From NCBI RefSeq assembly GCF_000373785.1, contig NZ_KB892377.1, positions 248,001-312,000 on the forward strand: a DNA stretch of 64,000 nucleotides, written 5' to 3'. How positions within the stretch are numbered: position 1 is the stretch's first letter; the number at the start of each line of letters is the position of its first letter. Below the pieces are notes generated by a model that did not search any database, was not told the DNA's origin, and saw only the letters and a program-made list of their open reading frames with translations. Shown here piece by piece: positions 18,280 to 64,000 of this stretch. A program made the translations under genes and the position numbers. Source of the stretch: Erysipelothrix tonsillarum DSM 14972. GTDB taxonomy: Bacteria; Bacillota_I; Bacilli_A; Erysipelotrichales; Erysipelotrichaceae.

Positions 18280-18285
18280 AGTGGT

Positions 18286-18437
18286 GCCCAAAGGGAAATA
18301 TATTTCCGACACTTTGATATAAGGGAATCCGGATGTTTATGCGTGGTGTGAAAGCTAATTTATTAGAATCCTAAGCACATGACAGGATACCCACCTGTTA
18401 ACACAGGGAATAATATCAACCCTTTGGGTTTTTATTT
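18286..18437 (+). ncRNA. ssrS: Probable 6S RNA
   Basis: 6S RNA binds the housekeeping RNA polymerase holoenzyme by mimicking an open promoter. About 150 nt lie between an extended -10 promoter and a T run. The ends pair (GCCCAAAGGG near 18286 with CCCTTTGGG at 18420-18428), so the closing stem doubles as terminator. The 3' half has the order typical of 6S RNA: a CCCACCTGT/ACAGGG hairpin (about 18390-18408) after the presumed central bubble. There is no coding frame. The identity is inferred from size, closing stem and the CCACC hairpin. A covariance-model search would settle it. Confidence 0.6.
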
Positions 18438-29500: not shown

Positions 29501-29587
29501 GCCCGAGTGGTGAAATCGGTAGACGCACTGGACTCAAAATCCAGCGAGGTAAAACTCATGACGGTTCGAGTCCGTCCTCGGGCACCA
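29501..29587 (+). tRNA. tRNA-Leu (anticodon CAA), CCA encoded
   Basis: The 87-nt gene has the acceptor stem GCCCGAG/CTCGGGC, an anticodon arm CTGGA-CTCAAAA-TCCAG with anticodon CAA, the long variable arm expected for leucine, a GGTTCGAGTCC T arm, and an encoded 3' CCA. It sits exactly where core chromosome gives way to the mobile element. Its 3' end is not repeated later in the window, so I cannot show that it is the attachment site. Confidence 0.96.
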
Positions 29588-35703: not shown

Positions 35704-36942
35704 ATGGAAAAATTGAAGAAATGGTTGGAACCAACAAAAAATAAAGTGATCGCAGGGACGGTATCAGTTCTAGTAGTTGCGATAATAGTAGTTGCTGTTG
35801 TACTTCTACAAAAACCAACACCAACGATTAAATTCAAAGACGATGCTGTGTTTGAAAAATATACTTATTTGGATCAAGAGATGATTGAATCCCAAATAGA
35901 TAAAGATAATAGTAATTACACATCATTTGAGTATGAATTTATTAAAGATGGAGAGATTGTATCATTTGATGAAATTAAAAAAGAACAAATTTCAACTTAT
36001 GTTGAAAAGAATGAACTTGAAAAACCTCAACCATCTGAGAAAGACAATACAGAGATAATGGCACTACTTGAGGCAAAAGATAAAATGCCACTTGTTCAAG
36101 ATGTCGATATAAGATTAACCGTAACGTTAGATAGTGGAAAACAATCAATGGTTGATTACACAATAAAGCCAACGGATACTGTTCCATTAGTTGTAAAAAT
36201 TGTTTATAACGATATTGAAATTAAAGATGGAGATAAAATTGTAATAGATATAAACGAAGACATCATGAACTTATTAAACTTATCAGCAACAGATATACGG
36301 TTTGGAAAAGAAATACAGATGAAGTCCATGGCGAGTTTAAATGAAAAAGATGAATATACTGAAGTTAATTTTGAATTCCAGACAACAGATGGTTTAGAAC
36401 TAACCAAACCAAGTGTTTATTTTTATACTAAAGATTTAGCAAATCTATCCGAAGCGGAAGTAAAAGAAATTAAATCACTAGGTGTTGTTAATGTTGATAC
36501 CGTTCAAGTCAAAGAAGAACTTCCAAAAACAGGTAATGACGAATCTGCAAACAACAACGGTAATACAACAAATTCAGGTAACGAAACGCCACCTGTAAAT
36601 ACGGGTAATGACTCACCATCCAACACCGGGGGTTCATCAAATAGTAATAATGAGACCCCACCAGCAAACAATGGGGGCGGATCTACTGCACTGTGCCCTA
36701 ATGGTTCAAATCCTGAGTTGCCTTGCGATGCACCGATTCACCAACATACTGCATATTCTAAAATGTTAGTTGGGTACAGTTTTGCTGAAGCTGACTCTTG
36801 GGCAGAAGATATTGCTGATGCTCGAATCTGGAATGGAGTTAAAATAGGAAGTTACGAAATTTATGAAGTTAAGAAAAACGACCACAGTTCTTACGGATAT
36901 GTAGTTTACTTTAATGACTATAATGGAAATGTAATTTTATAA
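35704..36942 (+). CDS. Membrane-anchored surface protein with internal LPKTG
   Basis: A 412-aa protein with one N-terminal membrane helix (about residues 17-38) and a large outside part. A folded region (about 45-270) is followed by LPKTG at about 276, a low-complexity Asn/Gly/Ser/Thr/Pro linker, and a C-terminal domain of about 85 residues with a CPNGSNPELPC pair of cysteines. The LPKTG is not followed by a membrane helix, so it is not a standard sorting signal. The layout parallels the lipoprotein at 41584 (short anchor, folded part, Pro-rich linker, Cys-containing tail). Function unknown; surface accessory of conjugation is plausible. Confidence 0.7.
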   Translation: MEKLKKWLEPTKNKVIAGTVSVLVVAIIVVAVVLLQKPTPTIKFKDDAVFEKYTYLDQEMIESQIDKDNSNYTSFEYEFIKDGEIVSFDEIKKEQISTYVEKNELEKPQPSEKDNTEIMALLEAKDKMPLVQDVDIRLTVTLDSGKQSMVDYTIKPTDTVPLVVKIVYNDIEIKDGDKIVIDINEDIMNLLNLSATDIRFGKEIQMKSMASLNEKDEYTEVNFEFQTTDGLELTKPSVYFYTKDLANLSEAEVKEIKSLGVVNVDTVQVKEELPKTGNDESANNNGNTTNSGNETPPVNTGNDSPSNTGGSSNSNNETPPANNGGGSTALCPNGSNPELPCDAPIHQHTAYSKMLVGYSFAEADSWAEDIADARIWNGVKIGSYEIYEVKKNDHSSYGYVVYFNDYNGNVIL

Positions 36943-36950
36943 AATCATAA

Positions 36951-36975
36951 AGAGAGGTTAAACTCTCTTTTTTTA
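36951..36975 (+). terminator. Intrinsic terminator
   Basis: AGAGAG (36951-36956) pairs with CTCTCT (36963-36968), followed by seven T. Confidence 0.85.
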
Positions 36976-36977
36976 TT

Positions 36978-36998
36978 ACATGGCAATCATTGCCATGT
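36978..36998. repeat. ICE palindrome copy 4 (central C)
   Basis: Perfect arms, directly after the T run of the previous terminator and before the GAGAGGA site of a nine-codon open frame. Confidence 0.95.
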
Positions 36999-37013
36999 AG
37001 AGAGGAAAAACTA

Positions 37014-37043
37014 ATGAAACAATATCGAGAAAGACCACCTTAA
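37014..37043 (+). CDS. Possible nine-residue leader peptide MKQYRERPP
   Basis: A very short open frame with an AGAGGA ribosome-binding site lies between palindrome copy 4 and a terminator, upstream of the 1475-aa adhesin gene. The order short frame, terminator, large gene is that of attenuation leaders. It contains Arg and Pro codons (CGA, AGA, CCA, CCT) near its end. Alternatively it is the stub of a deleted gene. Confidence 0.4.
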   Translation: MKQYRERPP

Positions 37044-37047
37044 AGAT

Positions 37048-37072
37048 AAGACAGCAGAGGCTGTCTTTTTTT
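37048..37072 (+). terminator. Terminator between the mini-frame and the large adhesin
   Basis: AGACAGC (37049-37055) pairs with GCTGTCT (37060-37066) over AGAG, followed by seven T. It lies 31 bases before the adhesin start and would have to be read through or avoided for expression from upstream. Confidence 0.85.
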
Positions 37073-37103
37073 ATGCATTAAAAATGTTTGTAAGGAGGAC
37101 AAT

Positions 37104-40100
37104 ATGAAAACAAACAGAAAAAAAATTACAGAATTAATGAACAAAATTCTAATCTCTGCACTAACCATTCTTGTTAGTGTCACGTCATTCACAGTAGATA
37201 TTAGTGCAAATGAAGAAGTCTATCGTAATGAAGACGTAATGATTAATGTTGAACGAAAACAAATAAGCGATAATACTGAAACTGAATTACTATTCAGTGT
37301 GAAGCATGACGAAAACGTACAAATTGAAGATATCAAATTAGGTGATCTTGAAGTCGAAAAAGTTGATGGCGATTTACCTAACACTTACAAATACAAATCA
37401 GTCGTTGGTATTGACGGTAATTTCAAATTTACAGTTAATTATTCAAAGACTTTATTAATCGAGACGGACGATAGTCAAAAGACAATCGAACGTAAAGATA
37501 AATTTGATTTCAATGTAATTGTTGAACCACCACTTATTGATATCGAAGAACAAAAAGAAGTAGTCGAAGTAAGTGAACCTACTCCAGTTGAACCTAAACA
37601 AGATCAACACCTGCCTAAAGAAGAGCAAAGAGTAGAACCAACAGAAGTTGAAAAGAAAACAGAACAAATTGATATTGAAGAGAATAAGAATATTAATACA
37701 GAATTCGATGGAAAAGGTCGTTCGATTTTCCAAGTTAATGGAATGATGCGAGCAGGAAATATTAGTAAATCAGACATTCCTTATAAGTACCATGTAGTAA
37801 AAATCAGTGACCCTAGTTATGAATATTATGATTATCAATATGCTAATTTATCTGTAGATGGCGAACATGCTATTTGTCTTGACCCATCCACTATGGTTAC
37901 GTCATCAAAATATGACCCAACTGCTGATTTTGACAGCCTAAGTAAGTCATTACAAAAACGACTTATCTTAATTGGAAATTATGGTTACAAGTATTTTGGA
38001 ACACAAAAACATATTCTTGCAGAAACAACTCTTGTATGGAAAGAAAAAGGATGGTCTACTAAATCTTGGAAAGATATGAGTGGAAACGTAATTGATATAA
38101 GCCAAGAGATTGCAGATATTGAAAATGCTATTTCTCACCACTATGACCGACCATCATGGAATGGTACAACTAAAAATGTGAATGTCGGTGATGTAATAGA
38201 CTTATCAGATGCTAATCTGAAAGGATTTACTGTTATAGCTGATAGCAATATTGAAATTGTTCAAAACAGTGGTTCAACTCTCAAGGTTAAACTAAAAAGT
38301 GGAACGAGTGGAGGAATTAATTTAAAGAAAAAATCTAATCTTAAAGATGGAACACCAATTATCTACAAATCTCCCAATTCTCAGGATTTATTAGTTGCCC
38401 GAGTAAAAGACCCTATCTATGCAGATATTACTCTTAAGGCTAATAAACATACTGTAGTGTTTGAAAAAGTTGATGCGGTTAATAATTCAATTAAATTGAA
38501 TGGAGCAACAATTCGTGTTTCACGTAGTAATTCAGTAGATGCAAACGGTTTTATGAATGCACCAATTCATTGGGATTACTCTACTGGAAGTAATGGATTA
38601 ACAACTGCAGATAAATTTGGTGATATTGGCAAGACTTACTACTATCAAGAAGTGAAGGCACCAAACGGCTATTTAGTAGACAAAACGATCCGTTCATTTA
38701 CTGCTCAAGGTGGTATTACAAGTACATTTACGATTCAGGACAAAAAACCTTTAGGAGAGATTGTTATTCATAAAAAAGACAATCACGGGAATGCACTTGT
38801 AAATGTGGTATTTGATATTAAGAATGCAAGTAATAGTGTTGTCGGTACTGTTACGACAGATTCCAATGGTAAAGCTAGTTTAAAACAATTACCTTTAGGC
38901 GACTATACAATTGTAGAAAAATCAGTACCAAGCGGAATCGTATTAGATAAAACGGTTTATAATGTTTCAATTAAGTATAAGGATCAAGTAACCCCTGTAG
39001 TTATTGTTACAAAGAACATTCAAAATAAATATCAACGTACTGATATTACATTAACGAAAGTTGAAAACAATTGGGATACAACATTCCCACAAAACAACGG
39101 CATCGTATTAAGTGATGCAGTAATCGAACTTTATGCTAAAACTAATATTTATGAAGGCAGTAAATTAATTTATCTTGCAGATACATTAATCGGAACTGAA
39201 ACTACAAATGCGAATGGTCAAGTAACATTCCATAATTTACCACTTGGTGACTATTATGCTAAAGAAAAAGCAGCGCCTAATGGTTATGTACTATTTAATG
39301 GTCAGTGGGATATTTTAGTTAAATATGATGGATCAAACCCAAGTGTTGAAATCATTAAAAACGGTAAAACTGTAGATAACCAAGTTATTTATGGTAAGGC
39401 AACTTTGATTAAACAAGATACAGACCGTAAATTGCTTGAAGGAGCAGTTTTTGGATTGTTTACAAAAGATGGCCAAAAACTTGCTGAACTAACAACAGAT
39501 AAGAATGGAATGATTGTAACACCGGACTTACGTTATGGTGATTACTACTTTAAAGAACTCCAAGCACCTATTGGATATATCTTAGATGAGACAGAAATTC
39601 CATTTACAGTATCGGAACATCAATCAATGCAATATATCACAGCACCAAACGAACCAATTCAAGCAAAACTACTCGTTAACAAATATGATAGCGAAACATT
39701 ATTACCACTTGCAGGAGCTGAGTTCCAAATCTTCAGTTACGATAAAAATGAGATTGTAACTGTTAAATACCAAGATGGTAAAAATGTTGTTGAAAAAGAT
39801 ACTTGGATTACAGATGAAGATGGTCAATTCTTAATTGAGGCATATTTATCCTACGGACGTTACAGTTTAATTGAAACTAAAGCACCTGAAGGATATAACT
39901 TAGTTGACCCTATTGATTTTGAAATTGACGAGAACCAAACATATCAAACGATTGAGATCATTGGTAAAGTCCTTGAAAAAGATGTTGCTAACCGACCAAT
40001 TCGCTCTGATGTTGCAGTGGCCAAAGTTGATGCAGTATCAAAAGAATACTTACCAAACTTTGAATTTAAGGCTATTAATATGACAACAAAAGAAGAGTTC

Positions 40101-42503: not shown

Positions 42504-42587
42504 ATGAGTCAAACAAATAAATCGAATTTTACTGAATTACTAGAAAGCTTAGGGATCCTGGAAGGAGAGTTAGATACTGATGACTGA
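42504..42587 (+). CDS. 27-residue small protein coupled to the ArdC-TOPRIM gene
   Basis: ATG 42504 behind AAAGGAG encodes MSQTNKSNFTELLESLGILE..., an acidic amphipathic helix. Its stop overlaps the start of the next gene by 8 bp, and the GGAAGGAGAG site of that gene lies within it. It is therefore either a small functional protein or a coupling leader for the 849-aa protein. Confidence 0.55.
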   Translation: MSQTNKSNFTELLESLGILEGELDTDD

Positions 42588-45129
42588 GAAGAATAAGACG
42601 ACATATAATGCCCGTCAAGAGTTTGCAAAACGTGTTCAACAATCTATCCTTGATGCACTTGAAGAAGAACGTATCCCTTGGGAATCACCGGTTACTAAAA
42701 ACTTTATGGTTCCCATTAATGCTATTACCAATAAGCAATACCACAATGTTAATGAAATGTTCTTAACAATGAATGCAACCTTGAACGGATATAACGATCC
42801 AAGATGGATTACCTTTAAACAAGCAAAAGAACAAAATTGGTATATAAAAAAAGGTGCTAAATCAGTACCAATCATTTTTTCAAGTATTGTTGACAGACGC
42901 ACTCAAAAACCTGTTACGAAAGAAATGACGGAAAAAATGACTCAAGAAGAACTTACAGAACTTAAAGCGAATACGTATATTAAATCAAGAATGTATCATG
43001 TTTTTAATGCTGAACAAGTTTCGGGGATCCCAAAACTTGAAGCACATCAAAAGATACAACCCATCTATAAACAAGAAACAATCGAAAAAATATTGAAAGA
43101 CTTATCAAAAAATTTAGATGTGAACATTAATTATCAGAATGTACCGAATGCATATTACAACTTAGTGGCAGATGATATCACAACGCCACCAATGGATCAC
43201 TATTCATCGTATGAAAAATATGCATCAACATTGCTTCATGAGTTTGTTCATGCCACAGGACACGAGAAACGGCTTAACCGTACCATGGTTGGAAACATGG
43301 AGAGTAAAGAATATGCAACTGAAGAATTAGTAGCTGAACTATCAGCTACCTATTTATCGGCATACATCGGTATTGAAAAAGAACTCAGTCAGTATGAAAA
43401 CCATAAAGCATATTGCCAGAGTTGGTATCAACGGATTAAGGACAATCCCGATTTATTGATCACTGCTCTTGCGCATTCTGCAAAGGCACAAAGTTACATC
43501 ATTGAACAAGGCGGTATTGAATTAATACAACCAAAACCAAAACTTGAACTTAATACGGATACGCTAAAGGCCACCGTACAAATTGAAGATTATGCAGTGG
43601 ATGTTTTAGGTCTTACACTGGTTCAAGAAGGGAATCATAAGTCTTTTAAAGAACATGATAGTTGTATTGTTTATCCAGATAATTCGTTCTATCGTTTCTC
43701 ACGCAATGTTGGTGGAAGTATTTTAGATTTTGTGATGCATTTTGAAGAAGTCGATTTAAAGACGGCTATCGATCGAGTTAAAAAGTATTGTCTTGATAAT
43801 AAGCTGGAATTACAAGATGGAACTATCCAGGGTGAGGGTAAACAACAAGTTCGTAAAAAAGCACAGCTCGAACTTCCAGAACCTTCAGACAACAATGACA
43901 AAATTATTAAGTATCTTACGGAGGAACGTGGACTGAGCCTTGCACTTGTTGAGAGTCTTATTGATTCCAAAAATTTATACCAGGATAAAAAAGCTAATTG
44001 TGTATTTGTTAGTTATGAAAATGGATTGGCTACTTATGGTATGAAACGTGGAACGTATGGAGACTTTAAAGGGGATGTTAAAGGAAGTGTAGCCTCTAAT
44101 GGATTTATTTTAGATAATGATGCAACACAAACAATCTTTACAGAAGGAATCATTGATGCTCTTAGTTTGATGGAAATGCTAGAGGATCCGGATACCTATA
44201 ACTACGTTAGTGTGAATGGTGTTGGTAAATGGCACGATGTGTTCACACACTATATTGAAACGTTATCGAAGTCACAGAAAGATATCGATACCTTTATTAT
44301 CGCATTTGATAATGATGAAGCAGGACAAATTGCGACCGAACAAATGACTGATTATCTGGAAGTACGTTATCCATTGTACAAGGTAGAGGTTTTAACATCT
44401 GAATTAAAAGATTTTAATAAAGATCTCATGGATGATAAACGCATAGAAACACTTGAACCAACACTTGAGTCCTTTGCATTAAGAGAACCTCAAGAACCTA
44501 ATCCAAAATATATGTCGTTAACAATCAACAATGCACATTGTTTAAAAACATTTATTGAAGATAACCAAACAAAAAAAATATATACATTCCCAAAAGGGAG
44601 TCAGTATAACAAATATATCTTTACTGTAAATGCAGAACAAATTATGAACATGGATGTTAATCGAAATACAGTGACACTTCAATTTAATGAAAATGAACCA
44701 ATTGCTGTTACTAAAGGAAAACGAATGGAGGGTGTGTACAAAGTCCTGGACGAACAATATATCAATGCACATGAATTACTCAGTGCTTATCGACAACTTG
44801 ACTATGAGCCTGAGTCAAAACAGCATGTAAGGCTTTCTAAGAACGACATAAAAGCGTTTAGAGAGGCAATAGAAAAAAACAAGGAAATTATGCGGACTCA
44901 GATAATTAAAGACACTGACATGCTATTAAATGGCGAAGGTCACTATCTTGTTGACCGGTCATTAATCGTCGATTTGCAGAAACAAGCAATGGACTTAAAT
45001 AATGATGGTATTGAAAATGCTATTAAGAATATTGAAGACCAAATGCTAGAACGGAAAAACGGACTGGAAATGAACAACAAAGCGTTAAACCTAAGTAATG
45101 AAAAAGAACCGGAACTTGAAATAAGTTAA
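42580..45129 (+). CDS. ArdC-like antirestriction / zincin / TOPRIM fusion protein
   Basis: An 849-aa multidomain ICE protein. Residues about 1-120 match the ArdC/LtrC-type single-strand DNA-binding domain (PWESPVTKNFMVPINAITNKQYHNVN). A zincin metallopeptidase motif LLHEFVHATGHEKRL follows at about 220. The middle (about 330-420) is a DUF3991/CHC2-like region, then a TOPRIM domain with FTEGIIDALSLME (about 525) and IIAFDNDEAGQIA (about 570). The C terminus is a helical region. Such proteins are carried by conjugative elements, where they may protect incoming single strands or act in priming. The last base of its stop codon begins palindrome 7. Confidence 0.85.
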   Translation: MTEKNKTTYNARQEFAKRVQQSILDALEEERIPWESPVTKNFMVPINAITNKQYHNVNEMFLTMNATLNGYNDPRWITFKQAKEQNWYIKKGAKSVPIIFSSIVDRRTQKPVTKEMTEKMTQEELTELKANTYIKSRMYHVFNAEQVSGIPKLEAHQKIQPIYKQETIEKILKDLSKNLDVNINYQNVPNAYYNLVADDITTPPMDHYSSYEKYASTLLHEFVHATGHEKRLNRTMVGNMESKEYATEELVAELSATYLSAYIGIEKELSQYENHKAYCQSWYQRIKDNPDLLITALAHSAKAQSYIIEQGGIELIQPKPKLELNTDTLKATVQIEDYAVDVLGLTLVQEGNHKSFKEHDSCIVYPDNSFYRFSRNVGGSILDFVMHFEEVDLKTAIDRVKKYCLDNKLELQDGTIQGEGKQQVRKKAQLELPEPSDNNDKIIKYLTEERGLSLALVESLIDSKNLYQDKKANCVFVSYENGLATYGMKRGTYGDFKGDVKGSVASNGFILDNDATQTIFTEGIIDALSLMEMLEDPDTYNYVSVNGVGKWHDVFTHYIETLSKSQKDIDTFIIAFDNDEAGQIATEQMTDYLEVRYPLYKVEVLTSELKDFNKDLMDDKRIETLEPTLESFALREPQEPNPKYMSLTINNAHCLKTFIEDNQTKKIYTFPKGSQYNKYIFTVNAEQIMNMDVNRNTVTLQFNENEPIAVTKGKRMEGVYKVLDEQYINAHELLSAYRQLDYEPESKQHVRLSKNDIKAFREAIEKNKEIMRTQIIKDTDMLLNGEGHYLVDRSLIVDLQKQAMDLNNDGIENAIKNIEDQMLERKNGLEMNNKALNLSNEKEPELEIS

Positions 45130-45759: not shown

Positions 45760-45996
45760 ATGCCAGAATTTATGTCAAAACTATTATCACTTGTTGAAGC
45801 ATCCCGAGGATGGGTTGTATCAATACTTGTACCCGTATTTATCGTATGTGGTCTCTTTTTCTCATTGATGTTTGGAGTCGCGAGTGACCAAAACAAAGGG
45901 AAATGGAAGGGAGCACTTATTTTCTTATTAGTCATTGTTATTATATCTGCAGCGATCGGATATATTATTCCTTGGTTATACTCATTCTTTGCATAG
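45760..45996 (+). CDS. VirB2/TrbC-like pilin-type membrane protein
   Basis: A 78-aa protein with two membrane helices (about residues 18-40 and 52-75) separated by a short charged loop (DQNKGKWKG), the topology of VirB2/TrbC proteins. It starts one base after the previous stop, behind GGAGGAG, and precedes the VirB6-like gene. In Gram-positive systems such proteins probably form part of the channel rather than a long pilus. Confidence 0.65.
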   Translation: MPEFMSKLLSLVEASRGWVVSILVPVFIVCGLFFSLMFGVASDQNKGKWKGALIFLLVIVIISAAIGYIIPWLYSFFA

Positions 45997-46030
45997 AACA
46001 CAATCAAGTTAAGAAAGGAGGTACATTATT

Positions 46031-50253: not shown

Positions 50254-51447
50254 ATGGGAATGATGTTTTTAAATATACGAAGAGTTGATGTAGGAAGTAA
50301 AAACTATGCAAACATCGTAAATTATTATGGCCGTGATGAAGCGGTCGAAGTTAAAGAAGAAGATGCTATAGCGATTGATGATGTCCTGGAGAACCCAGAA
50401 GCGATTATAAATTACTATGGTCGATTTGAGGAGGATGATGGATACCCTGGGTTTGATTTTCAAGGTGGTAAAACAAATGAACAAGCACTCTATGAACTTG
50501 AGACGTTGCAACCCAAAGAAATCTATCAATCCGTTATTTCATTTAAGTCTGAGGATGCCACAAAATTAGGACTTGTAACAAAGCAAGACTTCATGATCTT
50601 GGCAAATAGTTATATTTTAAGTTGCGCGAAACAGTTAGACATAAAGCGTGAAAATCTTGTATGGAGTGGATACGTTCATTCCAATACGGAAAATCCACAC
50701 ATGCATATTTATTTCTTTGATAAGTCACGTATTGAACAGCCCTTATTTAAGAAACGCGAAATTTTAAAAGTCAGAAGTTCCTTAGCGAATACAATTATTA
50801 ATCAAGTTGATTCTTATAAAGAAAAGGATCAAAACTATAAACGCGTAATTGAAGAGGCAAAAATGATGTTTTCAGATAAGAAAATTGATGATTTAATCGG
50901 TAGTAGAACAGTTCTTGGTCACCATAAGTTAATATCCTTAAGTGACGGAGATAAAGCCCTACTGAGAGCGTTTAAGGATTTATCCTTATCAATTCCCCTT
51001 GACGGAAGAAAAAGCGCTCTATCTTTAGAAAAATGGCATCCAGATGTATATAAACAATTAGAAGGCACACGAGAAATGATGGTTGAAGAGTTGAAATCAA
51101 TGTCTATTTATAAAAATAGTTTAAATGAAATAACTGAAGCATTTGTGAGTGTTTATGGTAGTGAGTCAAAAGGCAAAGAATACTACAACAACCAGATGGA
51201 TAAAATTAATCGAAGACTTGATAATGAGATTGTTAAATTTGTGACCGAACATCGTAATGAACTATTGCATCCGGATTTTGATTTTAATGATGTTCCCCTT
51301 AACTTTGCGGGTTCATTCAATAAACTTCAGTCAAGTGTCAACAAACAATTCATGCTTGGAATACAAGGCTTCTTATTTGCTATGAAACCACGTAAAGAGA
51401 AAGAGAAAGAAAGAGAGCGCGAATATGAAGAAGAAATCGACTACTAA
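50254..51447 (+). CDS. MobL/MobP-type relaxase
   Basis: A conjugative relaxase would nick oriT and stay bound to the transferred strand. The 397-aa protein carries the histidine triad motif HSNTENPHMHIYFF at about residue 147-160 (HxxxxxPHxH) and an N-terminal region with candidate catalytic tyrosines (NIVNYYGRDE, IINYYGRF). The C-terminal half is helical and basic. Start ATG 50254 lies five bases after GAGGTG. It sits between VirB4 and the coupling protein and overlaps the next gene by 23 bp. Confidence 0.85.
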   Translation: MGMMFLNIRRVDVGSKNYANIVNYYGRDEAVEVKEEDAIAIDDVLENPEAIINYYGRFEEDDGYPGFDFQGGKTNEQALYELETLQPKEIYQSVISFKSEDATKLGLVTKQDFMILANSYILSCAKQLDIKRENLVWSGYVHSNTENPHMHIYFFDKSRIEQPLFKKREILKVRSSLANTIINQVDSYKEKDQNYKRVIEEAKMMFSDKKIDDLIGSRTVLGHHKLISLSDGDKALLRAFKDLSLSIPLDGRKSALSLEKWHPDVYKQLEGTREMMVEELKSMSIYKNSLNEITEAFVSVYGSESKGKEYYNNQMDKINRRLDNEIVKFVTEHRNELLHPDFDFNDVPLNFAGSFNKLQSSVNKQFMLGIQGFLFAMKPRKEKEKEREREYEEEIDY

Positions 51448-56064: not shown

Positions 56065-56176
56065 GGTTATCAGCGACCAAGGGGAAGTTCCAAATGCTGA
56101 CAATTGTAAAGAGGTTGAAACCTCAATAAAAAATTAGAGTGCCCCTCATTAATCTGTGAGGGGTTTTTATTTTATT
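56065..56176 (+). ncRNA. Candidate small RNA B, possible type III antitoxin RNA
   Basis: A non-coding unit of about 110 nt sits between an extended -10 promoter and a strong terminator (CCCCTCA at 56142-56148 with TGAGGGG at 56157-56163, then T5). Inside, TCAGC pairs with GCTGA around an AGGGGAAGTTCC loop (about 56070-56100), and GAGGT/ACCTC forms a second hairpin followed by an A-rich tail, an arrangement that could form pseudoknots. It lies where ToxI/AntiQ antitoxin RNAs lie relative to ToxN-type toxins, but I see no tandem repeats, which those RNAs normally have. Confidence 0.55.
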
Positions 56177-56200
56177 AGACACGTAAATCGTGTCTTTTTT
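56177..56200 (+). terminator. Second terminator between small RNA B and the ToxN-like gene
   Basis: AGACACG (56177-56183) pairs with CGTGTCT (56189-56195), followed by six T. Two terminators in series would keep most transcripts to the RNA alone. Confidence 0.85.
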
Positions 56201-56203
56201 ATT

Positions 56204-56224
56204 ACATGGCAATGATTGCCATGT
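56204..56224. repeat. ICE palindrome copy 11 (central G)
   Basis: Perfect arms, 3 bases after a terminator T run and just before GAAAGGAG of the ToxN-like gene. The last copy seen. Confidence 0.95.
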
Positions 56225-56238
56225 GGAAAGGAGCCGTA

Positions 56239-56937
56239 ATGTGGGTACAAATAAATGAGGAGTATTTAAATTACTTAAGAGAATATGGGGATACACGAGT
56301 TCCGAATCAAGACTATGGCGAGCATAAATTCAAACCCTTTTTTCCTGTATTTGAATTAAAAAATACAGGAATTGTTTATGTAGCAAACGTTGGGCATTAT
56401 AAAGCAACAGAAAGGATGATGGAAGACACGATAGATTTTAAGAAGATACCAGGAAGTCATAATAACTATATCGGTGTTGTTCATTTAAACATGATGTTTC
56501 CGGTACCTAAAGATCAAATTAAAAAATATGATTATAAGATGATTGAGGAGAAAATGTCCTGGGGATCTAGTTTTGATTTTAAGAGGCATCTTCCAAGATT
56601 TCAACAATATGAAAAACGGGTAAAAGAAAAAGACATCGCCTTATCCGCTATGACAATTTACGAAATAAAAAATAAAAAATTAGATCCATACACGTCAAGA
56701 CGAACCTTGCCGTTTTTAAATTTAGAGGCAAAACTCGTTGAGTATCAAATTAATAAATACATCAAAAACGAGCTATTACAATCTGAAAAAATTGAGGTTG
56801 AACGAGAAGGAAATGACTTTCTGATAAATCATAAAAACAATGTATTTAAAGTAACCTATAACGAAATTAAGGATGTAGAGAAGTTGTATGAATATGTATC
56901 GTTAGGCAAAGCGCCCGATTTAGATATAGAGTTGTAA
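56239..56937 (+). CDS. ToxN/AbiQ-like endoribonuclease (type III toxin-antitoxin)
   Basis: A 232-aa protein resembling type III toxins that cut RNA and are held inactive by an RNA antitoxin. The order matches ToxN: an N-terminal INEEYLNYLREYG, the strand KPFFPVFELKNTGIVYVAN, and YIGVVHLNMMFPVP near residue 95. A C-terminal extension of about 60 residues is longer than classic ToxN (about 170 aa). I use ATG 56239 behind AAAGGAG rather than the start inside palindrome 11. Small RNA B with a terminator lies directly upstream, as expected. The family call is from pattern memory. Confidence 0.6.
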   Translation: MWVQINEEYLNYLREYGDTRVPNQDYGEHKFKPFFPVFELKNTGIVYVANVGHYKATERMMEDTIDFKKIPGSHNNYIGVVHLNMMFPVPKDQIKKYDYKMIEEKMSWGSSFDFKRHLPRFQQYEKRVKEKDIALSAMTIYEIKNKKLDPYTSRRTLPFLNLEAKLVEYQINKYIKNELLQSEKIEVEREGNDFLINHKNNVFKVTYNEIKDVEKLYEYVSLGKAPDLDIEL

Positions 56938-57346
56938 TTGTTTGTTTGAAGTCGCAAAGCGACCTAGTTTTTTGCACGCGGGGTGCGTGCATTCTTTGGG
57001 AAAGACTCTTCTGCAATTAAGGCAAATATCTATTTGTTGTAAGGCAGTAGAGCCTTTCTTAAAATCGCGCTTGCTAACGCAAGCGAAAAATACCAAATTG
57101 GAGTTTTACACCCTTTAGGGTGTCCAATTTAGTATTAGCAGGATAAGGGGCGTAACTTATGGTGTCCCATAAGTTACTTGTAGCAAATCGCCAGTGGCGA
57201 TTTCGAGGGGCAGTTTTGGTAACATTGTGCGACATTTTGACATAAAACAATAATAAAAAGTGCGACATATGGACTTTTGCGACTTTTTATATGTTATTGT
57301 CGCAGTATTTTGTAATTATAATCGCGACTTTGCGACAGGAGGAAAT
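56938..57346. other. Hairpin-rich non-coding region, candidate oriT
   Basis: These 410 bases carry no gene but at least seven inverted repeats in series: GTCGC/GCGAC (56952), GCACGC/GCGTGC (56976), GCGCTTGC/GCAAGCG (57066), a nested AAATTGGA...TCCAATTT around ACACCC/GGGTGT (57094-57133), GTAACTTATGG/CCATAAGTTAC (57152-57177), and AAATCGCC/GGCGATTT (57185-57203). At 57227-57335 TGCGAC or its complement recurs at least six times, ending at the ribosome-binding site of the next gene. Hairpin clusters beside repeated short sites are typical of oriT and relaxosome operators. The relaxase itself is 6 kb upstream. Confidence 0.5.
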
Positions 57347-57946
57347 ATGAACGAATTAAGAGAAAAATTAATAAATAGAATGGAAAAAGAAAAATTGAAC
57401 GTTTCTGAAGTATCTAATATTACTGGATTAAATAGAAAAACACTACAACGATTTTTATACACAAGTACAAACATTTCTAAATCAACTTCAGCTACACTCT
57501 CTGGATTTGTTGATTATCCAGGTAAATATAAAGAGGTTGAGGAAATGATTAATGTAGGTCAAGTTAGGATTCCAAAAGCACATTATGAATATCTAAAACG
57601 TCATGCTGAAGAAGATGGAGTCTCTGTGATCGAGGTGTTAAGAAGAGTAGTAGAAAATGTTGTCGAGAATGACTATTTATGGAAATCATTTGATGAACAT
57701 TTAAATATTACTGAACGAGCTTTAAAAACGACAATGAGTAAAACGATGATTCCTTTTATTAGACAACAAGATAAAGAAATTGCATTTATTGGAAATTATG
57801 TAATGTACCTGGAGGAACTCATATTCCGACTATGTTCTAAAGACCACAGTGATAAAGAATTTAGAAAAAGTATGAAGGTGATTAAAGATAGCATGTTTGA
57901 GATTGGTGACAACAAGCGATATAAAAGAACGAAGAAAGTGGACTAG
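57347..57946 (+). CDS. DNA-binding accessory protein, possible relaxosome factor or regulator
   Basis: A 199-aa protein from ATG 57347 behind CAGGAGGA. Residues about 15-45 (LNVSEVSNITGLNRKTLQRFLY) form a helix-turn-helix. The middle (VRIPKAHYEYLKRHAEEDGVSVIEVLRRVVENVV) reads like a ribbon-helix-helix segment, and the C terminus is a basic coiled region. The TGCGAC repeats just upstream, one of them 7 bases before the ribosome-binding site, suggest autoregulation. It could act as a relaxosome accessory at the neighbouring candidate oriT. Confidence 0.6.
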   Translation: MNELREKLINRMEKEKLNVSEVSNITGLNRKTLQRFLYTSTNISKSTSATLSGFVDYPGKYKEVEEMINVGQVRIPKAHYEYLKRHAEEDGVSVIEVLRRVVENVVENDYLWKSFDEHLNITERALKTTMSKTMIPFIRQQDKEIAFIGNYVMYLEELIFRLCSKDHSDKEFRKSMKVIKDSMFEIGDNKRYKRTKKVD

Positions 57947-57970
57947 CCGATTGGCTGGTTTACTTTTTTT
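57942..57970 (+). terminator. Intrinsic terminator
   Basis: ACTAGCC pairs with GGCTGGT (57953-57959, one G-U) over GATT, followed by a T-rich run. It overlaps the stop codon. Confidence 0.75.
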
Positions 57971-57989: not shown

Positions 57990-58245
57990 GAGCCCTTGGT
58001 TCCCGTACTCTAACATACGTTCCAAGAAAATCAAAATTCGCAAATTTTTTATGAGTAATGCGCTCATAAAAATTTTACTCTCGAGCAATGCTGCGCGCGT
58101 CAGATTATTTTTAAGGTTCATTCACTGCGTTCATACTCCACCCGCACTCGTGCGAATTCCGTCCTTAAAAATAATCTTCCTTTTCCGCTTGCATTGTTTT
58201 GATTTTCTTTCCACGTCTGTTTTCATTTAGTCACCAAGGGCAAAG
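57990..58245. other. Giant nested inverted-repeat structure 1
   Basis: Arms close inside each other over 250 bases: GCCCTTGGT (57992-58000) with ACCAAGGGC (58233-58241), AAGAAAATCAAAA (58024-58036) with TTTTGATTTTCTT (58197-58209), and AGATTATTTTTAAGG (58102-58116) with CCTTAAAAATAATCT (58163-58177), all perfect. Side hairpins lie at 58042-58076 (TTTTATGAG type) and CGCAC/GTGCG at 58143-58154. No gene is present. It may be a structured RNA, a single-strand origin or part of the transfer origin. Confidence 0.8.
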
Positions 58246-58275
58246 ATAAAAACTTGGTAGAAAGGAGTATGTATC

Positions 58276-58425
58276 ATGAGCAACGCTAATTGTATGAATA
58301 ATGATGAAGTAAGTGAACCAATGATTGAAATACCACTTGGTTTATTTCTAGCACTTGTGAATGGTAATGTAGAAGTAAAAGTAACTGAAATCGCGATATG
58401 CGGAGAAAAGGAAAAGGTAAACTAA
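58276..58425 (+). CDS. 49-residue small ICE protein
   Basis: ATG 58276 behind AAAGGAG encodes a 49-aa acidic protein (MSNANCMNNDEVSEPMIEIP...) with a hydrophobic centre (LGLFLALVNGNVEVKV). The stop is one base before the next ATG, so the two are coupled. Function unknown. Confidence 0.6.
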   Translation: MSNANCMNNDEVSEPMIEIPLGLFLALVNGNVEVKVTEIAICGEKEKVN

Positions 58426-58426
58426 T

Positions 58427-58825
58427 ATGAACTATTTTATTGCAAAAGAAATTGAAACAGGATATGAAGGACTTTATGAATACAGTGGAAAAATCAACAA
58501 GAAAGATTATGTTGTTATTCCTAATTGTAGTGATGAACCGGTTACTGCAATTGTAGTTAAAACAGTTAGTCGTTATAATGCATTGACATCTAATGAAACA
58601 CCACAAGCAATTATTGATACGATTGATGTTAAAGGGTGGCAACTTCGTAGAGAAAAAGAACTTGATAATGTGATTTTACTTGAAAAAATGCAAGGTAAAA
58701 TTAGTCAAATTAAACTCTTGGAACAACTTGAAAAATATGCTTCAAGAGATACTGAAATGGCAGAGTTCTTAAATGAGTTTAAAAAAGAAACAACCGAACC
58801 GATTAATGATAATACTGATTACTAG
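58427..58825 (+). CDS. Hypothetical ICE protein
   Basis: A 132-aa soluble protein starting at ATG 58427 with GGAAAAGG upstream. The N-terminal half alternates beta strands (KKDYVVIPNCSDEPVTAIVVKTV) and the C-terminal half is helical and acidic. The layout recalls small DNA-processing accessory proteins with an N-terminal beta domain, but no family is assigned. Confidence 0.6.
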   Translation: MNYFIAKEIETGYEGLYEYSGKINKKDYVVIPNCSDEPVTAIVVKTVSRYNALTSNETPQAIIDTIDVKGWQLRREKELDNVILLEKMQGKISQIKLLEQLEKYASRDTEMAEFLNEFKKETTEPINDNTDY

Positions 58826-58862
58826 AAGTAAGTGCGTGTGAACCACGCACTACTTCATTTTT
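58825..58862 (+). terminator. Intrinsic terminator
   Basis: GAAGTAaGTGCGTG (58825-58838) pairs with CACGCACtACTTC (58844-58856), with a T-rich tail. It begins at the last base of the stop codon. Confidence 0.75.
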
Positions 58863-58875
58863 AAAAGGAGATAAT

Positions 58876-59370
58876 ATGCCTAATATATGTGAATTTGAGA
58901 TGCTAATTAAAGGGTCTGCAGATAATTTAAAGAAAGCGAATGAAATTATCAATGCAGACTATGAATATGATGAAAATGGTTTAAAAAGTTGTAATGCAGA
59001 TTTTCATGTTTGTAGAACGTGGCCATGTACTGACCTTGAAAATGAATTAGATTTTGAAAGTGGAAGTATCAAAATATATGGGGATTGTGCTTGGAGTGTA
59101 TCAACGTGTATGTTTGAACAAGGTTACTATAAGGATTTAAAAGACCGTTCAAATTCAAGGGTAACCACAATTCCGATAATGTGTGAAATGTATGATTTAG
59201 ACTTTGAAATTTACAGCAAAGAATACGGAATGTGTTTTCAAGAACACTATATCGTTCGCAAGGGGGAAATTGAACTTGATGAATGTGTAGAATTTTCCAC
59301 TGAATATATCGAAGGAACTGATGAATATATTTCAGTCGGTGGGTTTAAAGAATGGCCATTTTCGATATAA
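58876..59370 (+). CDS. Hypothetical protein, Api92/YubB-like pattern
   Basis: A 164-aa acidic protein with many aromatic residues and cysteines. The opening MPNICEFEMLIKGSADNLKK and the late FSTEYIEGTDEYISVGGFKEWPF resemble Api92-like ferredoxin-fold proteins of plasmids and phages, where the start is typically MPNWC. The match is weak. It has an AAAGGAGA site and is followed by a hairpin. Confidence 0.5.
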   Translation: MPNICEFEMLIKGSADNLKKANEIINADYEYDENGLKSCNADFHVCRTWPCTDLENELDFESGSIKIYGDCAWSVSTCMFEQGYYKDLKDRSNSRVTTIPIMCEMYDLDFEIYSKEYGMCFQEHYIVRKGEIELDECVEFSTEYIEGTDEYISVGGFKEWPFSI

Positions 59371-59374
59371 ATTA

Positions 59375-59400
59375 AGGTGGCTACTATGCCACCTAGTTTT
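59375..59400 (+). terminator. Probable terminator
   Basis: AGGTGGC (59375-59381) pairs with GCCACCT (59388-59394), followed by AGTTTT. Confidence 0.65.
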
Positions 59401-59412
59401 GCCGGCTCGCAC

Positions 59413-59534
59413 CCAAAGCATAGGATTAAAATTTTAACGCAGGATATTTAATATCAGATCGCTACGCTTTCGTCGGCACGTTGTGCACGACTCACTAATA
59501 TAAAATATCCGCTAATTTTAATCCTATACTTTGG
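59413..59534. other. Nested inverted-repeat structure 2
   Basis: An outer 21-nt pair with one mismatch (59413-59433, beginning CCAAAGCATAGG, with 59514-59534, ending CCTATACTTTGG) encloses GGATATTTAATAT (59442-59454) with ATATAAAATATCC (59498-59510). Both enclose an inner hairpin GTCGGCAC/GTGC-A-CGAC at about 59472-59491. It has the same onion-like design as the structure at 57990 and no gene. Confidence 0.8.
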
Positions 59535-59564
59535 ACGCTCGATATAAGTGTGGAGAGCATACAA

Positions 59565-60465: not shown

Positions 60466-61754
60466 ATGGAAAGAAAAATTGCTATTTATTGTAGAGTCTC
60501 TACAGATGATCAAGCAGAAAACGGCTACAATCTACGGGAACAAGAGAAGCGAATTGAACAATACATTAAAGCATACGATAATGAGTTTACTGAAGAAGTT
60601 ATAAAATACATTGATGACGGATATTCAGCAAAAGACTTAAAGAGAAGGGAAATGATATTATTACTAGATGATATTAAAGACGGCCTAATATCAAAAATTG
60701 TAATTCATAACTTGGATCGACTGACGAGGAGTATGAAAGATTTAATTTATTTAATAGAGTTGTTTGAAGAATACGACGTCCAATTATTCAGTTTAAAAGA
60801 AAAAATTGATACAAAGACGGCCATTGGGCGCTTCTTTGTATCAATGATAATTCTAATTGCACAATGGGAACGAGAAGCAATTTCGGAAAGGACTATCAGG
60901 GCCTTAGATCAATCAGCATATGAAGGGAATTACGTTCATGGAAGAACACCATTTGGTTATAATACCGTCAATAAAAAATTGGTAATCAACGAATTGGAAG
61001 CTCCTATTGTTAAACAAATTTTTCATATGTATCTATTTAATGAAGACAATGTTAATAAGATTCTGCATTATCACGGTTCCAATCATCGGGACTTAGGTTT
61101 TATTTGGACTTATGATAGAATTAGAAATATATTAACAAACGAAATTTACACAGGAACATATAGAAATAAGCGAATCGTCATCGATAATCATTCACCTCAA
61201 ATAATTGAACGAGAACAATTCGATATGGTACAGGAAATGATGCAAAGTAAGAATAAAAAAGATAATCATCTTTACCTGTTTAAATCATTGTGTTTCGATA
61301 GTGGAACCAAAAGAATATTAAATCACAGAAGTGTTGTTAAACCTTTGAAGATATATTTGTACTATGAAAACGAAAAACAACAACGCATTAATGAGAACGA
61401 TATTGAAAAACAAATTAGAACAGATATTAATAAGTATATTAACAATACAATTAAAAAATCATTTTCAGTCAAAATTAACACTTTGAAAAAAAAGATTATG
61501 CTCTGGCTGAGTTAGATAGATATTTTGATATTGGATTTATTAATGAACAATATTATATGGAAGAAAAAAGCAAATTATTGTCAAATATTAAATTTAAAGA
61601 AAATTCGTTGGATATAATCGCACATGATACAGAGTATTGGAGTTCGATGAATGTAAATCAACAACGTAAGTTTTTGATAATGAATGTATCCAAAATAGAA
61701 ATTGATCTAAGTGAAAAAAAAGTAATCAGTATTATATTTAAGTCTATCAAATAA
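60466..61754 (+). pseudogene. Large serine recombinase, frameshifted at an A8 run
   Basis: The N-terminal catalytic domain is clear: IAIYCRVSTDDQ with the nucleophile serine, the HNLDRLTRS motif and QWEREAISERT. The recombinase domain follows (GRTPFGYNTVNKKL, IWTYDRIRNILTNEIYTGTYRN). The frame ends at 61515, but the protein continues in the frame one base earlier from the A8 run at 61486-61493 (KDYALAELDRYFDIGFI...) to 61754. One missing A explains this. The zinc-ribbon cysteines expected after YLFKSL are largely absent, and the joined length (about 430 aa) is short, so decay may be older than the frameshift. It would be the integrase of the ICE. Confidence 0.75.
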
Positions 61755-63397: not shown

Positions 63398-64000
63398 ATG
63401 ATTAAAATTGATAAGATTGACACCTCAGAAAATGCTAAAATATTTGCAAATATGATTAATGATTCACCTAAAACATATTTTTTAGATGGAAAATGGGGTA
63501 GTGGAAAAACTGAATATATAAAAGAGCTTGAGAAATATCTACGAAAGGATATCCGTGTTATAAATGTGGAGTTGTGGAAACCAAAAGATAAAAGTACCTT
63601 ATCTCAATTGATGTTTGAAAGCATTTATCCGTTTAAATTCAAATTAATAAAAAGAATTATTAAGTTATTTATATTCTTTTCTGTTATGGGGAGTATGTTT
63701 ATCGCATTTAAAGGTTTATCCTCGAAAGAATTTTCAGTATCAGAAACTGAATCAATGTTATTTGGGGTAATCTTGTCAATTTCAACAATCATAACAACGT
63801 TATATACGTTTATTGGTGCAAAATGGGTTGATTTGGATCGTTACTACATGGGTAAATCAATACAATCGCTTGTTGATATTAAAAGGCCTAAACTTTTAAT
63901 TATTGATGATTTTGATAGATTAGAAGAAAGTGTTCGTAATGAATTGTTTTTGCTTTTTAATTCAATCCACGGAATAACGAGAGTCGTTTTTGTTGGCGAT
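63398..64000 (+). CDS. KAP-family P-loop NTPase, N-terminal part (runs out of window)
   Basis: From ATG 63398 the frame is open to the window end (201 codons). Walker A FLDGKWGSGKTEYIKEL lies at about residues 28-44, two membrane helices follow at about 87-105 and 124-145, and Walker B LLIIDDFDRLEE at about 166-177. The insertion of membrane helices between Walker A and B is the hallmark of KAP NTPases, some of which belong to phage defence or mobile-element systems. The rest of the gene and possible partners are not visible. No strong ribosome-binding site is seen (AAGAAAGCGAG upstream). Confidence 0.8.
   Translation, partial: MIKIDKIDTSENAKIFANMINDSPKTYFLDGKWGSGKTEYIKELEKYLRKDIRVINVELWKPKDKSTLSQLMFESIYPFKFKLIKRIIKLFIFFSVMGSMFIAFKGLSSKEFSVSETESMLFGVILSISTIITTLYTFIGAKWVDLDRYYMGKSIQSLVDIKRPKLLIIDDFDRLEESVRNELFLLFNSIHGITRVVFVGD

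Follow-up and report, generated by a model that had tools for sequence, protein, structure and literature searches.

The closest described counterparts of the structures analysed here are found in plasmid F, in the pLS20 family and among single-strand origins. In plasmid F, Frpo2 and Frpo1 lie before ssb and before the 64032 gene (PMC9849209), and Frpo-driven genes are less effective at the trailing end (PMC11541004). In the pLS20 family, which has a MobL relaxase, the EGeRS1 copies are described as structured, GC-rich sequences of about 420-750 bp that precede establishment operons, occur several times per element and have no evident double-stranded DNA promoter; the transferred strand (T-strand) is reported there to be non-template for these genes, and the authors recognised no promoter for EGeRS1 and no strand compatible with one (PMC8708921). 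Single-strand origins such as ssoA, ssoU, ssoT and ICEBs1 sso1 are folded single-stranded DNA recognised on one strand. Searches of the open-access literature brought up neither elements of this type described from Erysipelothrix nor single-strand promoters shown in Firmicutes. At the locus described here the T-strand is predicted to be the template of the early genes, the fold is under measurable selection, and unrelated sequences fill the same place in other integrated conjugative elements (ICEs); together these features make single-strand promoters or origins of Firmicutes testable with short DNA in Bacillus subtilis.

The window, a stretch of 64,000 nt from Erysipelothrix tonsillarum, contains an ICE that spans about 29.6 to 59.6 kb. 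tRNA-Leu (29501-29587) lies at one end; an attachment repeat was looked for at the opposite end and not found. The gene content comprises ParA/ParB-like proteins, an ArdC-Toprim protein, a VirB4-like protein, a MobL-family relaxase (50254..51447, plus strand), a VirD4 coupling protein, an M23 peptidase, an OLD-like protein, ToxN and an HTH protein. The last of these (57347..57946, plus strand), which has a possible RHH-like region and a DUF6290 match that is weak and below cut-off, is likely a relaxosome accessory. Its gene sits between the predicted oriT and the first of the two structures, A, and the intrinsic terminator of this HTH/transfer operon (57931..57970, plus strand) lies 21 nt before A. 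Past A, an RBS (58260-58267) leads into the plus-strand early operon (58276-59370), whose genes encode proteins of 49 aa (58276..58425), 132 aa (58427..58825) and 164 aa (58876..59370) and which is probably establishment-like, used just after entry into a new cell, a role that we infer. Copies of the second structure, B, are placed after the early operon and that operon's terminator. Elsewhere in the window, the ArdC-Toprim protein (42580-45129) combines ArdC N-terminal, zincin-like peptidase, DUF3991 and Toprim domains in a single chain and likely has anti-restriction plus primase-like functions; a large serine recombinase (60466-61754) is apparently split in two frames (60466-61515 and 61557-61754), and a 6S RNA gene (18282-18434) has an Rfam match above the gathering score.

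The minus strand, which serves as template for the genes and is the predicted T-strand, is most likely the one on which structure A (57992..58241) functions. The structure folds into a three-way junction closed by the outer helix P1 (57992-58000 / 58233-58241, 9/9 pairs), an intervening helix P1b (58012-58020 / 58213-58221, 8/9 pairs) and P2 (58025-58036 / 58197-58208, 12/12 pairs), and carries the hairpins P3 (58040..58078, arms 58040-58055 / 58063-58078) and P4 (58102..58177, arms 58102-58116 / 58163-58177, a 15/15 stem). The 46-nt apical region of P4 (58117-58162) is conserved in sequence, and the unpaired core on the template strand is rich in purines. The DNA-fold z-scores of A are -7.5/-8.1 (plus/minus strand), with 0/200 shuffles as good; folded as RNA, A is also stable (z -5.9). 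Structure B (59409..59538, minus strand), downstream of the early operon, is a long, nearly perfect hairpin with outer arms at 59409-59433 / 59514-59538 and inner arms at 59442-59454 / 59498-59510 that enclose a small core hairpin (59472-59491); its z-scores are -4.8/-5.6, again with 0/200 shuffles as good. A and B have an apical motif in common, which reads GAACNNAGTGARYGA in the minus-strand sequence. The hexamer TAGCGA, which we take to be CS-6-like, occurs in window B and is not preserved among the remaining B copies. The nested, long and nearly perfect arms reported by the first-pass annotation are thus present in both structures, and the perfect 9- and 15-bp pairs it listed were borne out; its 13-bp pair proved to be 12 perfect pairs, and A, which it called onion-like, has nested arms within an overall shape that is a three-way junction and not one onion.

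When all 260-nt windows of the 64 kb were ranked by minus-strand fold, the first three places went to the oriT region, A and B, in that order. Two further folds were recorded. One (56121-56380), which starts shortly ahead of the ToxN-like toxin gene (56206-56937) and runs into it, is strong and may be the repeat array of an RNA antitoxin in a type III toxin-antitoxin system; the other (36921-37180) ranks high on both strands and lies around the gap before a gene for a surface-protein-like product of 1475 aa.

The pairing of A and B is conserved in relatives, a check that the first-pass annotation had proposed and that turned up heavy covariation. DNA searches with A returned the locus L002 (73% over 282 nt) and several loci with the P4 core alone in common; when folded, the A relatives have the same architecture with arms altered in sequence. 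Covariance models built from three A copies and three B copies, with the window left out, recovered window A (E=3e-16) and the A of G010 (9e-6), and window B (E=2.5e-10) and the B of G010 (7e-5); the A model later found the A copies of G006 (6e-29) and G011 (1e-23). Across six Erysipelothrix copies of A, in a model-fitted alignment that leans towards the model because three of its six rows also built it, two-sided changes occur in 36/72 pairs, 92.4% of cells are paired compared with 33-45% in slid controls, and the covariation score is 0.41 compared with 0.15 for shuffled and 0.03-0.09 for slid alignments. The helices of A can be checked by eye, and the slid control is far off despite the alignment bias. 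For B, 14/50 pairs covary among three copies. BLAST of B within the genus matched nothing except B itself, and its relatives were recognised by position first and then by the covariance model, which across the order matches Erysipelothrix only and misses the window's own copy under stricter filters.

These results bear on whether A and B are ordinary terminators or chance hairpins, as terminators adjoin both structures. That the folds could not be chance, and that terminators do not look like this, had been asserted from the letters alone; both statements held up, since 0/200 shuffles fold as well, neither structure has a T-run, separate terminators exist, and the helices covary across relatives. 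We consider the terminator or chance explanation hardly credible. A pattern scan of GTDB genomes returned four Erysipelothrix matches together with two Pseudomonas matches judged to be chance. The match L007 (G290) is a chance hit within an RnfD/NqrB-like gene. Plasmid and phage searches with A and the A core gave chance matches of 19-31 nt only, and Rfam at two thresholds held nothing relevant to A or B, with no match at or above the gathering score. One further locus, L013 (G007:C57, 749-956), is a degraded A copy in which one half diverges within the P4 core into sequence resembling a transposase gene.

For B, wobble pairs support the template strand. In the predicted folds, G.T pairs number 21 on the template (minus) strand and 0 on the other, and a hand count gave 20 G.T pairs on the minus strand with no C.A; ten of the G.T pairs represent one tandem wobble that is kept in all five copies. 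The same count for A (12 template, 17 coding) favours neither strand. The template strand is the more stable at 19/19 sites, but template-strand shuffles also fold more stably, so composition explains part of this energy bias, and we gave it up as proof of strand; the z-scores of A and B are similar on both strands.

The predicted oriT (57138..57203, minus strand) consists of a hairpin (57185-57203), an inverted repeat (57152-57162/57167-57177) and a predicted nic between 57139 and 57138, CCTTATCCTG|C. The order hairpin, inverted repeat and minus-strand CCTTATCCTG|C, ahead of the HTH gene, recurs in the window, L002 and L003, and in G029 the template strand shows this layout as well. The site agrees with the MOBP nick consensus (C/T)ATCCTG(C/T) (PMC3772185), and the MobL relaxase of pLS20 nicks the template strand too (PMC5313138). 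From the position and strand of this motif the T-strand is predicted to be the minus strand running from 57138 leftwards, so that B and A would enter last in this ICE. Both structures would then lie at the trailing end, A at 853 nt from the predicted 3' end; an early idea that T-strand polarity places A in the leading region was dropped when the nick motif was found. In G304 the nick motif is on the coding strand, and the layout is therefore not universal. The strongest single-strand fold of the window (56941-57200), a series of several hairpins between toxN and the predicted nick, corresponds to the first 200 nt of the predicted T-strand.

Each Erysipelothrix copy of A has transfer-side genes on one side and the early operon on the other, and begins 10-30 nt past an intrinsic terminator in most copies (about 75 nt in G007-33). 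A MobL relaxase accompanies A in the window, G010-1 and G007 C28; in G007 C33 the partner is a longer relaxase with another VirD4, and G011 has a third arrangement. The association of one onion family with two different relaxase/VirD4 sets argues against A and B being double-stranded or extruded DNA sites for element proteins, whether of the relaxosome, partition, replication or an integrase. Such a site would fit the nearby oriT and gene for a relaxosome-like HTH protein and the conserved sequence of the loops, but the arms keep pairing as their letters change, which is not required of a duplex site read by sequence, and we hold this explanation to be very improbable.

The 132-aa early protein has homologues in G068 (three loci), G011, G006 and G142, and an onion fold precedes the early operon at every one of these loci, with template-strand z-scores of -4.4 to -7.5. 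The homologue was used in advance to predict most of the onion sites, an out-of-sample test in which the first gene of each early operon was picked by eye. The A copy of G006 is just the third-ranking fold of its 10 kb, and the onion ranks second at three other loci. In G029, identified earlier via the A model and a distant HTH homologue, a 157-nt onion (z -9.6) lies after an M23 gene and before early genes. Onions thus stand before early operons at 5/5 non-Erysipelothrix loci examined (G029, G068 C4, C7 and C10, and G142 C3), and those of related ICEs in three other genera have no sequence similarity to A. The onion and early genes of G029 lie in the leading region, entering first, with the genes reading towards oriT; by its predicted nick the onion of G068 C7 is probably leading likewise, with genes towards oriT, and that of G068 C4 looks leading as well, by a nick motif with one mismatch. 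Strong folds in G304 and G142 C25 occupy positions other than that of A and seem to be unrelated, and what was taken by eye for an SSB-like gene behind the G068 C10 onion has no Pfam match. The locus L077 (G142:C25, 2281-2560) is a near-perfect palindrome with arms of about 80-100 nt, located where a surface-protein-like gene ends; it has no relation to A or B.

In rolling-circle plasmids the displaced strand has its sso close to the 3' end, and in the ICE of the window A lies likewise near the 3' end of the predicted T-strand. A and B might accordingly be purely single-strand origins that prime the complementary strand, either following transfer or as part of rolling-circle replication; RNA polymerase, or a primase/primosome at the conserved apical loops, would do the priming, and the early genes would be incidental. 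The apical motif held in common would suit origins of this kind, as would the position of B after the operon, where no promoter-like motif was seen within B, and the orientation-specific sso carried by ICEBs1 (PMC4595007). Against this stand the onions ahead of early genes at all five non-Erysipelothrix loci, several of them near the leading end (G029, probably G068 C7 and C4), and plasmid searches revealed no similarity to known sso types; we regard origins alone as an unlikely account. With A trailing here and its counterparts leading in G029 and probably G068, promoter and origin are not separable by position.

A promoter-like motif lies in the 3' arm of A (58007..58034, minus strand; TTGATT-N16-TAGAGT), with TG one base ahead of the second hexamer (the N16 ends in TGT); the first hexamer is paired in P2 and the second falls in an internal loop. 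The corresponding hexamers in other A copies are TTGAAT/CAGAAT, TTGCAT/TAAGTT, TTGCAA/TAAGGT, TTGCAT/TAAGGT and TTGCAT/TATGGT (the last at a spacing of 15), and the distance from TTTTG to GGG in the 3' arm, measured by eye, is 27 nt in the window, G010-1, G007-28, G010-2 and G006. The match is weak, at best 8 of 12 positions and no better than a consensus scan yields by chance, and consensus promoter scans do not report it. As double-stranded DNA the motif points the opposite way, and no consistent consensus promoter stands out on the coding strand between the terminator and the early gene. Given a motif at chance level and no recognisable ordinary promoter, the use of RNA polymerase is a step that we infer.

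The promoter survey also bears on a structured RNA, either a leader of the early operon acting by roadblock or antitermination in the manner of EGeRS1, or a minus-strand regulatory RNA. A lies directly ahead of an RBS and has a stable RNA fold, and EGeRS1 is reported to block read-through in pLS20 (PMC8708921). The short gap between terminator and A in most copies, however, leaves a plus-strand leader promoter without room, no consistent minus-strand promoter or terminator was found, the wobble pairs of B favour the minus strand, and Rfam gave no match; a structured RNA is, in our judgement, quite unlikely. Among the options of the first-pass annotation (structured RNA, single-strand origin or protein-assembled DNA), a single-strand role on the T-strand fits best, because neither strand showed a promoter/terminator arrangement from which A could arise as a discrete RNA, and because of the wobble pairs in B and the predicted nick.

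The fold and position of A and B and, for B, the template strand are well supported; T-strand polarity, use of RNA polymerase and timing are predictions. We have good confidence that A and B do their work as single-stranded DNA, folded from the template strand, and their probable role is that of a switch or priming site on the single strand that comes in. On balance we favour, with some reserve, A as a Frpo-like single-strand promoter and/or priming origin on the T-strand with B as its companion element. The minus strand would fold as it enters the new cell, or while the donor replicates it by rolling circle, and the arms of A would pair imperfectly, with a promoter-like -35 placed in helix P2 and a -10 in the internal loop. 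Host RNA polymerase would bind this fold and copy the minus strand rightwards, reading the opposite arm of A and then the early genes behind a leader of about 45 nt plus the RBS. The resulting RNA would express the operon 58276-59370 during the single-stranded phase and could also prime the complementary strand, like Frpo/ssi elements, until conversion to double strand destroys the fold and switches the element off. B at the operon end would be a second single-strand element, perhaps a second priming site or origin.

Like Frpo1 and Frpo2 (ssi; F and ColIb-P9), the elements extend over hundreds of nucleotides and probably fold on the template strand, and A and the onions of other ICEs lie just before early operons, a stable one-strand fold being found directly before early genes; in G029 and G068 C7 the genes read towards oriT, which is the F arrangement. 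In the same scan applied to F, 2nd and 4th place on the template strand go to the regions ahead of ssb (58320-58539) and of the 64032 gene (63720-63939), respectively, so that known single-strand promoters show this signature. Unlike Frpo, A has weak hexamers, the hosts are Gram-positive, the fold in Erysipelothrix is branched, and A of the window is, by the predicted nick, at the trailing end whereas the F elements are in the leading region. Plasmid searches gave no similarity to Frpo or EGeRS1, and, with the weak boxes and a position outside the leading region here, we do not file A and B as Frpo/ssi members. A resembles EGeRS1 in being structured, in preceding an operon of putative establishment role, in occurring more than once per element and in having no evident double-stranded promoter; it differs in size and GC content and in a T-strand predicted to be the template. 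A and B fall below 60% identity to the EGeRS1 copies, and their covariance models match nothing in pLS20. More tentatively, A and B may belong to a class of Gram-positive ICE single-strand switches kept by fold and position and not by sequence, which would activate an establishment cassette only while it is single-stranded; the Erysipelothrix cassette would have one at each end (A at the start, B at the end), is combined with at least two transfer systems, and would enter last in this ICE. A strand bias that the source passages on EGeRS1 do not mention was seen in pLS20 itself (L097), where the EGeRS1-B region 45801-46020 folds at -66.6 kcal/mol on the template strand and at -54.1 kcal/mol on the other.
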